From Clostridia bacterium (GTDB lineage: Bacteria; Bacillota; Clostridia; Christensenellales; Christensenellaceae): a stretch of DNA of 64,000 nt. The notes beneath the pieces were generated by a model. It did not search any database. It saw only the letters and a list, made by a program, of their open reading frames with translations, and was not told the DNA's origin. Every line of letters begins with the position of its first letter. Positions within the stretch are counted from its first letter, which is position 1. The stretch spans positions 1 to 64,000 of the forward strand of contig JAFXKX010000019.1 of NCBI GenBank assembly GCA_017531505.1, in the 5' to 3' direction. The position numbers and the translations under genes were made by a program. This document shows positions 26,842-33,814 of this stretch, one piece after another.

Positions 26842-26876
26842 AAAGAAGGCAGCATGATTTGCTGCCTTCTTTTTTG
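26842..26876 (+). terminator. Terminator after ylmH
   Basis: The stem AGAAGGCAGCA / TGCTGCCTTCT is followed by TTTTTTGT. Confidence 0.92.
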
Positions 26877-26996: not shown

Positions 26997-27818
26997 ATGA
27001 AAAAAGTATTGGCAATGGTAATGACTTTGGTAATGGTACTGGCAATGGTAGGCTGCGGCAAGAGTAAAGATTTCGACTTTACATCGGCAGATGGCATTGC
27101 CGGCGCGATCGTAGTGGCAGAACAGGAATCTGCCGGTGAAGCAGTGGTATTGGAAGATGAATTTTTTGCAGAAGCAGACTATACCGCAGTAGACCTGCAG
27201 TCCAAAGCGCTGATGGAAGTATCCTCCGGCACAGCAGATGCAGCAGTGGTTGACTATGTTATGTCTATCGGCTCTATCGGCGAAGATACCGACTATGAAG
27301 ATCTGGTGCTGGTAGACGGCGTTGAATTCTCTCCCGAAGAATACGGCATTGCATTCCGCAAAGGTTCTGACCTTACTTATCAGGTAAACAAGGCGATCGC
27401 AGCGCTGAAAGATAACGGTAAACTGGAAGAAATCGCAAAGAAATATAAGCTGGAAGACCTGCTCCTGGGCGATGCTGATTTCGAAGAGATAGATCAGGCT
27501 GATTCCGACTGGGCTTACATTCAGGATAAGGGCGAACTGATTATCGGTATTACATTGTTTGCTCCCATGAACTATACGGATGACAATGGCGAACTGATCG
27601 GTTTTGAAACCGAATTTGCGAAGGCAGTTTGTGAAGAACTGGGTGTAAAGGCAAAATTCCAGGAGATCTCCTGGGCAGCGAAGGAAACCGAACTGGAAGC
27701 AAAGAACATCGACTGTATCTGGAACGGTATGACCATTACCGAAGAGTGTAAGCAGACGATGAGCATTTCCATCCCGTATATGCGCAATAAGCAGGTACTG
27801 GTTGTAAAAGAGAAGTAA
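26997..27818 (+). CDS. Amino-acid solute-binding lipoprotein with reversed lobe order (circularly permuted)
   Basis: The 273-residue protein has a lipobox (AMVGC20). Residues about 26-157 match the C-lobe of family-3 amino-acid binding proteins: the GVQ-GS-like IVVAEQESAGEAV, DAAVVDYV (81-88), EEYGIAFRKGSD (114-125) and the final helix VNKAIAALKDNGKLEEIAKK. Residues about 170-273 match the N-lobe: GELIIGITLFAPMNYTDDNG, GFETEFAKAV, IDCIWNGMTIT (238-248) and PYMRNKQVLVV (260-270). In normal proteins the N-lobe comes first and PY...VLVV leads into the C-lobe; here that is the C-terminus. The linker DADFEEIDQ joins the old termini. It is followed by its permease and ATPase genes. Confidence 0.88.
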   Translation: MKKVLAMVMTLVMVLAMVGCGKSKDFDFTSADGIAGAIVVAEQESAGEAVVLEDEFFAEADYTAVDLQSKALMEVSSGTADAAVVDYVMSIGSIGEDTDYEDLVLVDGVEFSPEEYGIAFRKGSDLTYQVNKAIAALKDNGKLEEIAKKYKLEDLLLGDADFEEIDQADSDWAYIQDKGELIIGITLFAPMNYTDDNGELIGFETEFAKAVCEELGVKAKFQEISWAAKETELEAKNIDCIWNGMTITEECKQTMSISIPYMRNKQVLVVKEK

Positions 27819-29262: not shown

Positions 29263-29292
29263 AAAAAGAGCAGGATATGATCCTGCTCTTTT
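29263..29292. terminator. Bidirectional terminator after the ABC operon
   Basis: The stem AAAAGAGCAGGA / TCCTGCTCTTTT has T-runs in both directions between convergent genes. Confidence 0.88.
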
Positions 29293-29305
29293 GTTTATAT
29301 GATGA

Positions 29306-29804: not shown

Positions 29805-30578
29805 TTATTCATAGTATTTCCGCATATTCCGCAATGCGGCTTTTTCCAGTCGTGAGACTTGTGCCTGACTGATGCCGATCTCTTTGGAAACTTCCATTTG
29901 TGTTTTACCGGCAAAATAGCGCAGATAGATAATATTTCTTTCGCGCTCCCCCAGTTTGGCGACGGCATCGGACAATGCGATCGAAGATAACCACTGATCA
30001 TCGGAATGCTTCTGGTCAGACAGACTATCCAATATATACAATGTATCGTCACCGTCCTGATACAGCGGCTGAGAGAGCGATACCGGGTCTGCAATGGCAT
30101 CCAGAGCATAGACCACCTCTTCCACCGGCATTTCCAATTCTTTGGCGATCTCATCGATGGATGGTTCCTGCATATTGCGTTCGATGAGGGCAGTTTTTGC
30201 CTGATAAGCACGATAGGCAATATCTCTTAAAGATCTGCTGACACGCAGCAGATTGTTGTCGCGCAAATAGCGACGTATCTCACCGATGATCATAGGCACC
30301 GCATAAGTAGAGAATTTTACCTTCAGTGCAATGTTGAAATTATCGATCGCCTTCATCAGACCGATACAACCGATCTGAAACAGATCATCCATATTTTCAC
30401 CGCGCATGGAAAAACGCTGTACGATACTCAATACAAGGCGAAGATTTCCCCGGATAAATTGCTCTCGCGCCTGAGTGTCGCCGGCATATATTTTTTGAAA
30501 ATAAGTCTCCAACTGGTGCTCAGGGATAATGGGCAGTTGTGAGGTATCGACTCCACAGATTTCTACACGCATAGACAT
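29805..30578 (-). CDS. sigG: RNA polymerase sporulation sigma factor SigG
   Basis: The 257-residue sigma-70 factor begins with the SigG-typical N-terminus (VEICGVDTSQLP) and has region 2 (DDLFQIGCIGLMKAIDNFN) and region 4 (KTQMEVSKEIGISQAQVSRLE). It drives late forespore genes. ATG at 30578 follows AGGAGG. It lies 104 bases after sigE in the same direction, the conserved spoIIGA-sigE-sigG order. Confidence 0.97.
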   Translation of the reverse strand: MSMRVEICGVDTSQLPIIPEHQLETYFQKIYAGDTQAREQFIRGNLRLVLSIVQRFSMRGENMDDLFQIGCIGLMKAIDNFNIALKVKFSTYAVPMIIGEIRRYLRDNNLLRVSRSLRDIAYRAYQAKTALIERNMQEPSIDEIAKELEMPVEEVVYALDAIADPVSLSQPLYQDGDDTLYILDSLSDQKHSDDQWLSSIALSDAVAKLGERERNIIYLRYFAGKTQMEVSKEIGISQAQVSRLEKAALRNMRKYYE

Positions 30579-30614
30579 AGCAGCTTCCTCCTGTACAACA
30601 ATGGTTGCTGCTTT

Positions 30615-30644
30615 TATATTTGCCCGCTATAAGGGGAAGTATAC
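30615..30644 (-). promoter_or_regulatory. Candidate forespore (sigma-F/G-type) promoter of sigG
   Basis: On the minus strand GTATA (30644-30640), 15 bases, then GGCAAATATA (30624-30615). This resembles the GYATA / GGNRANANTW boxes of SigF and SigG promoters. In Bacillus sigG is a SigF target. Confidence 0.55.
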
Positions 30645-30682
30645 GATTGCTGACGGTACGAAATTTGCGGATAATCGACATA

Positions 30683-31390
30683 TCATATCAGTTTTTGGAT
30701 GTCTGTGCGAATACGTTGTATAATACGCTTTTCCAGCCGTGATATATAACTTTGCGAAATACCAAGCCGATCAGCGACTTGTTTTTGTGTGTGCTCCGGA
30801 TACCCGCCAAGTCCAAAGCGCATACTGATGATCTGTTGCTCGCGTCCGGAAAGCAGGCCGATGGCCTGATGGATCAATTGCCGCTCTACACTGCCCTCGA
30901 TTTCTTGATAGACTGTATCCGGCTCTGTACCCAGAATGTCTGACAGCAGCAGTTCGTTTCCGTCCCAGTCGGTATTGAGCGGTTCATCTAATGATACTTC
31001 GTTGCGTAAACGGGAGGTGCGGCGAAGAAACATCAGGATCTCGTTTTCGATACAGCGGCTGGCATAGGTGGCCAATTTGATATTCTTATCGGTATTAAAG
31101 GTGTTGACTGCTTTGATCAGCCCGATGTTGCCGATAGAAATCAGATCTTCCAGATGGATGCCCGTATTATCGAATTTACGGGCAATATACACCACGAGAC
31201 GAATATTGTGCTCGATCAGTGCCTGACGTATTTCCTCGGTACCTTCGCTCAGGTGGGTAAGAAGCGCGGCCTCTTCCTGCTTGGAAAGCGGCGGCGGAAG
31301 TACTTCGCTGCCGTTGATGTAATATAGGGTACGGTTACGGCAGAAAAGCCGGAACAGCCGGCAGAAGAACAGATTGCGAATTTTATACAT
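30683..31390 (-). CDS. sigE: RNA polymerase sporulation sigma factor SigE (precursor)
   Basis: The 235-residue sigma factor has a membrane-associating pro-region (about residues 1-25, with the [10 protein letters not shown] stretch), region 2 ([18 protein letters not shown]) and region 4 ([19 protein letters not shown]). SpoIIGA would remove the pro-region to activate it in the mother cell. ATG at 31390 follows AGGAGG and overlaps spoIIGA by 8 bases. Confidence 0.97.
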
Positions 31391-32228
31391 GGGGAGCCTC
31401 CTTTGATGTCGATAATGGATAAAGCTGCAGTCCGGCGGGTAGCAGCGCATAGACATCCTGACCGGGCGAGATATCACCGAGGGCAAGATATGCTTTTGCA
31501 GTATAGTTATGTCGCTTGTCCGAAAGTATGAGTTGTGCAGGCATAAATCCGTATAACTCCGTATTCCCGGCAGCGGTCCGGCAAAGAAAGCGGCGGACAG
31601 GTATTTCTGCCCGGGCAGGGTCTAATAACTTGTGGTATGCTTCGTGAGATATACATTTTTGCAGGCGGTAACGGTCTATGGCGATCACGCCGTTTCCCAT
31701 GGCATCACAAAGGGTATTTCCTGTATCACAGATCGCTTGCAGCTGAATGGTCTGCCCGTATAGGGTAAACTGCAATGTGTATCGCCGGCGGACTTCGGGG
31801 TTATAACGCTTTGAAAGACATTCTGTCAGCAGGAGTAATACCGAGATACCCAGAAGGACTATACGAAAAGGCATGCCTGCTTCCGCCTGCCCAAAAGGTG
31901 CAATGCCATATTCCAGCATCAGAGAGAGCAAGATGCCGCCAAACAGGAAGGCAACACAATAAAAACAAAGCAACCTCCGGAAGAAAACACGCAGTGGAAT
32001 GAGGCCGGCAGGCAAACACATTAGGGCGGCGATCACGATCTTGCATGGGGCTGCGGTGAGTATGGGCATATATAAGGCGATCGTGCTGTATGTGCCGCCG
32101 ATCGAGGCGCCGATACACAACTGCAAAGCGTGGGCGTGTTTTTCGCAGATGCGGCAGCTGAGCAGCAACAATAAAAAGTCCAGCAGAAAATTATCTATAA
32201 ATATCAGTTCGATATAGAGGTGTTGCAT
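31383..32228 (-). CDS. spoIIGA: Sporulation sigma-E processing peptidase SpoIIGA
   Basis: The 281-residue protein has about five N-terminal membrane helices (about 5-150) and a C-terminal aspartic-protease-like domain with CDTGNTL. It cleaves pro-SigE at the septum after the SpoIIR signal. ATG at 32228 has AAGGAG 7 bases upstream. A TATACT -10 (minus 32260-32255) precedes it without a clear -35 at normal spacing, as seen in Spo0A-activated spoIIG promoters. Confidence 0.93.
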
Positions 32229-32321
32229 AGATCTGCTCCTTAAAGAATGGGAACAGTATACTGTATGGGGCATTTGAAAAATGTAGAACAACGCTGTGTA
32301 GCCGAATAGGACAGAAAAATA

Positions 32322-32350
32322 TTGTGCAGAACAAACAGAAAGTATATACT
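32322..32350 (+). promoter_or_regulatory. Candidate promoter of pyk
   Basis: TTGTGC (32322-32327), a 17-base spacer and TATACT (32345-32350). Two further TATAAT boxes (32352 and 32371) lie close by, so the exact -10 is uncertain. Confidence 0.45.
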
Positions 32351-32398
32351 GTATAATGGTTGAATTTTTATATAATGCGATTAAAGGATAATGAATAG

Positions 32399-33814
32399 AT
32401 GAGAAAAACAAAGATTGTAGCAACGTTGGGACCCGCAAGTAATACACAGGAAAAGATGATGCAGCTGATTCAGGCCGGTATGGATGTGGCGAGAATGAAT
32501 TTCTCTCATGGAGATCATGAAGAGCAGCTGGCAAAGTTCAATGCTTTGAAAATGGCCAGAGAAACCATGGGTAGACATGTGGCAATCCTGCTGGACACCA
32601 AAGGCCCCGAGATCCGTCTTGGCCGGTTTGCAGGCGGCAGTGCGGAATTAAAAAAAGGGACAGTCTTTGTTTTGACTTCAGAGAAAGTATTGGGTGATGA
32701 ACACCATGCATCCATTACCTATCCGGACCTGTACCGGGATATCAAGGTGGGCAATGTGATCCTGCTGGATGACGGCAATCTTGAACTGAAGGTCGAGAAG
32801 ATCAAAGATCGTGATATTTATACCCGGGTCGTAGTCGGCGGTAAAATATCGGACAAAAAGGGTGTGAACACCCCCGGCGTACATCTGGGACTGGAATATT
32901 TAAGTGAAGTTGACAAAGAAGACATCCGTTTTGGTATTGCCAACGGGATCGATATGGTTGCGGCTTCGTTTACGGAAAGCGCAGAAAATGTATTGGCAAT
33001 GCGCGAATTCCTCAGAGAGGAAGGCGCAGGAGATATATACATCATTGCGAAGATAGAGAGTGAGCGCGGTCTTGCCAATGCAAAAGAGATTTTGGAAGTC
33101 AGTGATGGCATTATGGTTGCGCGTGGCGACATGGGCGTAGAGATCCCTCTGTATGAGGTCCCGGTAATGCAGAAACGACTGATCAATATGGCAAATGAGG
33201 CCGGCAAGATCGTCATTACTGCGACACAGATGCTGGAAAGTATGGTAAACAGTCCGCGCCCGACCCGTGCAGAAAGCACAGACGTAGCCAATGCGATCTA
33301 TGACGGGACCAGCGCTGTTATGCTGTCGGGCGAGACTGCATCCGGCAAATACCCGGTAGAGGCAGTACGTACGATGGCCAACATCGCTGAACGCACCGAA
33401 CGGGAAATCAATTATCAGAAACGGTTTTTTGAGGCAGATAAAGAAACACAGAGCGTGACCGATGCCATTACCCATGCGGCATGTACCATTGCCTATGATC
33501 TGAAGGCTGCTGCGATCTTTGCCATGACAAAATCCGGCAAGACGGCAGAACTGGCATCCCGTTTCCGCCCGGAAGTACCTATTATCGGCTGTGCGACCGA
33601 TGGTCCTGTGCTGCGCAGACTCAATCTGCACTGGGGTGTAGAGCCGATGGGTCTGCCGGTATGCGACGAAGCGGAAGAAATGTTCGAGATGGCGATTACC
33701 AAGGCAAAACGCATCGGACTGGTCAAGACGGGTGATCAGATAGTCATTACGGCCGGTGTGCCGCTGGGCATTCCCGGTCTTACCAATATGCTCAAAGTGG
33801 TGACTGTAGACTGA
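32399..33814 (+). CDS. pyk: Pyruvate kinase
   Basis: The 471-residue protein has the barrel motifs DTKGPEIR, KIESERGLANAKEIL and the active-site stretch MVARGDMGVEIP, then ATQMLESM. It converts PEP and ADP to pyruvate and ATP. It lacks the extra C-terminal PEP-utiliser domain of Bacillus Pyk (585 residues). ATG at 32399 follows AAAGGA. It is divergent from spoIIGA. Confidence 0.96.
   Translation: MRKTKIVATLGPASNTQEKMMQLIQAGMDVARMNFSHGDHEEQLAKFNALKMARETMGRHVAILLDTKGPEIRLGRFAGGSAELKKGTVFVLTSEKVLGDEHHASITYPDLYRDIKVGNVILLDDGNLELKVEKIKDRDIYTRVVVGGKISDKKGVNTPGVHLGLEYLSEVDKEDIRFGIANGIDMVAASFTESAENVLAMREFLREEGAGDIYIIAKIESERGLANAKEILEVSDGIMVARGDMGVEIPLYEVPVMQKRLINMANEAGKIVITATQMLESMVNSPRPTRAESTDVANAIYDGTSAVMLSGETASGKYPVEAVRTMANIAERTEREINYQKRFFEADKETQSVTDAITHAACTIAYDLKAAAIFAMTKSGKTAELASRFRPEVPIIGCATDGPVLRRLNLHWGVEPMGLPVCDEAEEMFEMAITKAKRIGLVKTGDQIVITAGVPLGIPGLTNMLKVVTVD

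Follow-up and report, generated by a model that had tools for sequence, protein, structure and literature searches.

Does a family-3 solute-binding protein (SBP) from a Clostridia genome carry the parts of its fold in reverse order, and if so, is this a single accident or has it happened repeatedly? The question is raised by a gene in a 64,000-nucleotide stretch of DNA from a Clostridia bacterium (positions 1 to 64,000 of contig JAFXKX010000019.1, assembly GCA_017531505.1; here called the window), for which the original prediction, made from the sequence letters, was a naturally circularly permuted amino-acid binding protein.

Pfam model PF00497 matched the window protein in two stretches (E 6.4e-32; 110.5 bits versus a curated cut-off of 26.4). 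It is thus one domain in two reversed partial matches, as had been expected for this search, and NCBIfam models likewise gave one SBP_bac_3 domain split into two reversed segments. The stretches were also reversed when the protein was compared by phmmer with PDB chains: for AncQR (4zv1), residues 178-272 correspond to chain positions 9-104 and residues 64-150 to 145-230. We then used a reference profile of 245 columns made from 42 normal-order relatives; with residues numbered on the 275-codon open frame, residues 24-159 cover columns 108-243 (185 bits) and residues 169-274 cover columns 3-108 (207 bits). The two segments are complementary and free of gap or overlap, so no part of the fold is absent and none is duplicated. 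The objection that both matches might belong to the same lobe, raised beforehand, is thereby answered. Judged from these alignments, chance as the source of the reversed order is out of the question. The standard chain order of SBP_bac_3 (N-part, lobe II, C-part) is reversed here, which makes the window protein a permuted homologue and not a standard member of the family. An identity as tandem substrate-binding domains (SBDs) of the GlnPQ type, with two complete SBDs per chain, was rejected, as each part is present in a single copy.

A break at the inter-lobe hinge had been proposed, and the Pfam, phmmer and profile segments agree on it with the structure model (Table 1). The protein had also been described as a C-lobe followed by an N-lobe. 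The reversal stands, but the supposed C-lobe (residues 26-157) consists of lobe II (about residues 36-102), hinge strand 2 and the two C-terminal helices of lobe I. Because residues 122-157 belong to lobe I, this lobe forms one unbroken stretch (residues 122-273), and a single covalent strand joins the lobes where normal proteins have two. The chain ends with the hinge-1 strand NKQVLVVKEK. The linker has 13 non-profile positions, versus 11-16 in other close proteins of the same cut type (type A, see below) and more in divergent ones.

Table 1. Coordinates of the window gene, its parts and its operon (window positions)
Feature	Position	Strand	Details or basis
Terminator-like hairpin (GAAGGCAGCA...TGCTGCCTTC + T run), end of upstream gene	26845..26875	+	sequence by eye
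SBP_bac_3 (family-3) solute-binding lipoprotein, circularly permuted, type A (cut at hinge 1)	26997..27818	+	273 aa, ATG start
Lipoprotein signal peptide, residues 1-20, lipobox MVGC at end (Cys20)	26997..27056	+	sequence; lipobox scan
Short tether from lipid anchor to hinge 1 / lobe II, residues 21-35	27057..27101	+	alignment; model (low-confidence start, ordered fold after)
Lobe II, residues 36-102, mid-chain in normal proteins	27102..27302	+	profile columns, model
Hinge strand 2, residues 103-121, sole covalent crossing between lobes	27303..27359	+	DSSP strand E103-121 of model
Lobe I C-terminal helices, residues 122-157, protein end in normal form	27360..27467	+	profile, model
Linker, residues 158-169, ancestral C-terminus to ancestral N-terminus	27468..27503	+	non-profile positions
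Lobe I N-terminal part, residues 170-261, protein start in normal form	27504..27779	+	Pfam, phmmer, profile, model
Codon TGT = Cys251, at relatives' ligand-carboxylate-binding Arg (GlnBP R75 position)	27747..27749	+	sequence, alignment
Hinge strand 1, residues 262-273, C-terminus of rotated chain	27780..27815	+	profile, model
Amino-acid ABC importer permease, 214 aa	27837..28481	+	PF00528; HEQRo_perm_3TM above cut-off
Polar-amino-acid ABC importer ATPase, 256 aa	28485..29255	+	closest NCBIfam L-cystine TcyN, under equivalog cut-off
Terminator-like hairpin (AAAGAGCAGGAT...ATCCTGCTCTTT), end of three-gene operon	29265..29295	+	sequence by eye

The SBP, permease and ATPase genes lie only a few bases apart, ribosome-binding sites precede both the SBP open reading frame (ORF) and the permease, and terminator-like hairpins flank the trio. 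Complete permease and ATPase genes had been predicted to follow the SBP, and both were found intact directly downstream. Domain scores identify the trio as a polar-amino-acid importer operon (PF00528, 75.8 bits; TIGR01726, 66.9 versus 42.2; ABC_tran, 124.6). The cut-offs of the NCBIfam cystine importer equivalogs TcyJLN (PRK11260/15100/11264) were missed, at 108 of 312, 115 of 300 and 291 of 406 bits; by sequence similarity, TcyJLN are the closest named relatives of the operon without including it as a member. Just downstream on the opposite strand (29805-32534), we noted by eye in the translations a putative sporulation sigma cluster with two sigma-70-family factors and an apparent SpoIIGA.

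How widespread is this order? We scanned 84,980 species genomes and also searched the order, class and phylum of the window organism. The same order was present in 26 loci of other genomes (L005-L030; 57-71% identity over the matched part), which excludes an assembly error. It is hardly conceivable that an artefact of assembly or annotation reduced a tandem of normal SBP genes, or an SBP with two domains, to a C-lobe plus N-lobe. Tandem SBP domains do exist in Firmicutes (GlnPQ, 6h30, which spans the junction profile), and neighbouring SBP genes occur in the family: three normal-order genes in a row at L032 (a Spirochaetales genome, 3833-6395) and two at L042. Dozens of separately assembled genomes, however, show the rotated order, one of them on a 1.3 Mb contig (L115), and the stop codon and the permease start are normally spaced. 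Truncation by assembly, named in advance as a possible refutation, thus fails as an explanation.

Normal-order relatives from the 84,980-genome scan are similarly close to the window protein, with N-parts up to 79% identical. Compared in rotated register, identity reaches 75% (type A L015 versus normal L041; 68% for the window protein). Rotation cuts recur at four places, namely near profile columns 31, 108, 138-145 and 174-185. Type A, to which the window protein belongs, has its ends near column 108 at hinge 1; type B starts near column 145 and ends near 138, in a loop of lobe II; type C starts near column 180 and ends at 174-185, in the lobe II loop that immediately precedes hinge strand 2; type D starts near 31-34 and ends near 30-32, in a lobe I loop after the first strand. 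Among the matches listed there are at least 103 distinct rotated proteins (46 A, 24 B, 25 C and 8 D, with identical rows merged). They represent related gut bacteria: at least 69 species-level genomes in 46 genera and 28 families, to which the loci of the 84,980-genome scan are added; most of the genomes are metagenome assemblies. Three phylum-sample genomes outside the class of the window organism (G984, G720, G763) carry the junction in one stretch. The best plasmid-record match, from Pusillibacter faecalis, is a normal-order relative. A search for homologues had been suggested as a check, and the permuted form indeed recurs in at least 28 families; the four cut points and the repeated origins described below had not been foreseen.

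Eight rotated proteins, all cut at hinge 1 (L137, L138, L139, L186, L193, L208, L209, L222), belong to clearly distinct family-3 subfamilies, arginine-binding-like and others. The rotation is therefore not limited to the cystine-like group. Locus L022 (1233-2833) contains a normal-order and a rotated SBP gene in the same orientation, the former overlapping the beginning of the latter's open frame; their proteins are only distant relatives.

To count origins, rotated proteins were re-ordered to the normal order in silico and aligned with normal relatives. A FastTree tree of 193 rows contained 16 switches between normal and rotated order, at least 7 of them forced by strong branches, and an IQ-TREE tree of 121 rows contained 15 by parsimony, of which well-supported branches account for at least 6. 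Placing all rotated forms in one clade was 725 lnL units worse, and the cost of a single clade for each type was 585 units for A, 383 for C and 129 for B (p 0.002). When the N-part and the rest of the protein were given separate trees, a single rotated clade was rejected in each (266 and 440 lnL units); since both parts reject it separately, a mosaic of lobes is no explanation. The tree searches were quick, the model simple and the sequences derived from metagenome-assembled genomes, so the exact number of switches is uncertain. Whatever the exact count, there were several separate rotation events as judged from these sequence trees.

Might there nevertheless have been a single ancient permutation that was passed on to many descendants, the cut point later moving slightly and some lineages returning to normal order? 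Types B, C and D do partly share one region of the tree, and parsimony does not distinguish gain from loss. Apart from the rejection of an all-rotated clade, however, type A proteins stand inside well-supported normal groups at several places: in the IQ-TREE tree L152 is the sister of a normal group, and L139 and L208 are placed among arginine-binding-like normal proteins. L171 and L172 stand beside type C, and reversions to normal order would demand equally many rearrangements. We therefore consider a single origin very improbable. The IQ-TREE tree also suggests switches from one rotated order to another, as two type C proteins (L119 and L128) are nested in type B and type A L165 is sister to type C L162. 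It appears probable that chain order is evolutionarily labile in Clostridia family-3 binding proteins, with many separate permutations at four recurrent places and rotated-to-rotated switches (C inside B, A beside C).

Structure models are in line with the rotated order. AlphaFold2 gave confident models for the window protein (29 type A sequences; pLDDT 89.5, pTM 0.80) and for the type C protein L033 (16 sequences; pLDDT 87.5, pTM 0.79), and the former agrees with the proposal that a two-lobe fold can still form after a break at the hinge. The elements of the type A model follow each other as lobe II, then long strand, helix and helix, then the lobe I N-part; in the type C model the order is long strand, helix and helix, then the lobe I N-part, then lobe II. 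As modelled, the type C order is a cyclic rotation of the type A order. In the type C model, residues 108-287 can be superposed on both lobes of normal SBPs (best 5t0w; Z 17.4, rmsd 1.9, 175 residues), and only the moved piece falls outside. For the type A model, sequential aligners returned single-lobe matches (ArgBP domain 1) and Foldseek whole-chain TM scores (query) of at most about 0.45; such low values are expected of a permutant. A viral structure library gave only remote flytrap matches. The best VIA-align match to the window model was the remote, eukaryotic PfVFT1 of Plasmodium falciparum (5jkq, a structure reportedly from Parker et al. 2017), with residues 122-264 on chain positions 30-195 (Z 12.2, rmsd 2.9, 132 residues, 18% identity). 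The two align in C-part-to-N-part order of lobe I, which suggests that lobe I of PfVFT1 also has this order; PfVFT1 is possibly a eukaryotic natural permutant. It was absent from the best 50 matches of the type C model, an absence that carries no weight.

Several observations speak for function. Permease and ATPase genes directly follow 74 of the 76 rotated ORFs first examined; of the two exceptions, L117 is followed by a permease only and L035 by neither before the sequence ends. A lipoprotein signal stands just before the cut in 93 of 103 rotated proteins by lipobox scan, all four types included. The dN/dS values of eight pairs covering all four types were 0.03-0.20 and indicate purifying selection in the relatives; between the window protein and its nearest relative (L005) synonymous sites are saturated, so these values speak for the relatives. 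At one locus (L140:3120-6222, minus strand) we noted two adjacent ORFs (open frames of 507 and 531 aa), both encoding a rotated SBP in fusion with a BPD_transp_1 permease domain, and then one ATPase.

Ligand-site residues, which we take to be Gly68, Thr70, Arg75 and Asp157 in GlnBP numbering, offer a further view. The Gly, Thr and Asp are retained in nearly all rotated forms and kept in the window protein as Gly244, Thr246 and Asp86; the Arg75 position is occupied by Cys251. An Arg is present there in 42 of 46 type A proteins, and several rotated proteins and a few normal ones have a hydrophobic residue. Cys251 could have arisen by a single C-to-T change, and the window copy may bind a changed ligand or be on the way to losing its function, so the functional claim is strong for rotated forms in general and weaker for this copy. 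One might go further and take the window protein for a decaying or repurposed member, for example with a non-amino-acid ligand, and for no amino-acid importer subunit at all. The putative change from Arg would fit this, as would the missing Arg of several relatives, rotated or normal; yet the reading frame and operon are intact and the other checked ligand-site residues are retained, and we regard this as rather unlikely. Very probably, then, the window gene encodes a working SBP_bac_3 amino-acid-type binding lipoprotein that was rotated at hinge 1 as one case of a recurrent rotation and feeds the downstream permease and ATPase. We infer transport activity and an amino-acid ligand: the lipoprotein would deliver its ligand to the (probably homodimeric) permease and the ATPase from the two genes that follow. 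Closure on the ligand should resemble that of any Venus-flytrap SBP, since the cleft is lined by nearly the same residues as in the normal form. In type A proteins one covalent strand would connect the lobes, with the lipid anchor at the hinge and lobe II and not at the start of lobe I; any gain from this new anchor position is presumed.

How could such rotations come about? Permutation by duplication (PMC3320104), in the form of tandem duplication followed by trimming, is the likeliest route here. An in-frame tandem duplication and fusion of the gene would probably be followed by loss of the redundant ends and by a new start and stop. The cut would in every case fall at one of four sites on the surface or at a hinge, and the rotated gene would keep or regain a signal peptide at its front. 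The original prediction had named duplication with trimming at both ends. This is plausible, but a clear duplicated remnant was found in none of the 103 rotated proteins (two weak self-matches, E about 0.01, were taken as chance), and no tandem-fused intermediate was seen among the rotated proteins and relatives examined, so the duplication route is one that we only infer. Apparent overlaps in L101 and L125 proved to be signal-peptide sequence aligned to the profile, not leftover duplicates. Excision of a gene circle with reintegration, or fission into lobes and fusion in the other order, would agree with the cleanness of the rotations, whose start and end columns are complementary without redundant residues. 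No split lobe genes were present beside the loci looked at, however, and four cut places at loops suit trimming to what folds. These other routes are unlikely, though they keep some weight beside duplication.

An SBP with a natural permutation has been described before: TpMglB-2 (Tp0684) of Treponema pallidum, a sugar-binding protein of 'Type Ic / Cluster Bc' (Brautigam et al. 2016, PMC4990184), whose group occurs in treponemes and Gram-positive bacteria. As in the rotated family-3 proteins, a binding lipoprotein of an ABC importer was permuted while its two-lobed fold and ligand site were kept. TpMglB-2 differs in having the Type I / Cluster B sugar-binding fold, whereas the window protein matches PF00497 and not MglB-type proteins. 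It also represents one permutation class with a fourth hinge crossing added, in contrast to four cut classes, several origins and, for type A, one crossing fewer. Normal SBP_bac_3 proteins (cystine TcyJ-like, GlnH, ArtJ, AncQR 4zv1 and 3hv1) are homologous in both parts and have the same operon partners, but their chain of N-part, lobe II and C-part is unrotated. The tandem SBDs of GlnPQ (6h30) resemble the window protein locally, where the first SBD's C-terminal part leads into the N-terminal part of the second, and are a model of the duplicated intermediate; unlike the window protein, a single rotated domain with a separate permease, they are two complete normal domains fused to the permease.

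No solved rotated family-3 SBP was among the best 60 junction-profile matches, where only the tandem 6h30 spans the junction. The open-licence literature on permutation and SBPs yielded engineered biosensors, general permutation work and TpMglB-2, and no family-3 permutant; permutation-detection papers and CPSARST held no SBPs. Nor did we find in the open-licence literature an SBP family with more than one cut point or repeated origins of SBP permutation. The earlier statement that no such subfamily had been described thus holds for family 3 in this literature, and not for SBPs as a whole, given the permuted sugar-binding TpMglB-2 (PMC4990184). A precedent for SBP permutation exists; the surprising part is its recurrence in family 3.

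In databases the rotated SBPs carry ordinary annotations, and sequential aligners break them into pieces. The usual account of circular permutation is of a rare event that happens once in a family. The family-3 rotations contrast with this, as normal and rotated proteins are close relatives (up to 75% identity) and four rotations stand beside the same transporter partners. They form a natural experiment on topology, which may tell in which loops new termini are tolerated, whether one hinge strand is enough, and whether there is selection on the position of the tether. The last question is tied to the proposal made for TpMglB-2 by its authors (PMC4990184), namely that binding proteins on a tether may be well served by permutation, since nearly all rotated forms are predicted to be tethered. 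For biosensors built from binding proteins, the rotated forms suggest ready-made sites of permutation. If true, the lability of chain order would place family-3 SBPs among the protein families in which natural permutation has been most frequent and would provide a natural series for studying the effects of termini and tether on folding and flytrap closure.
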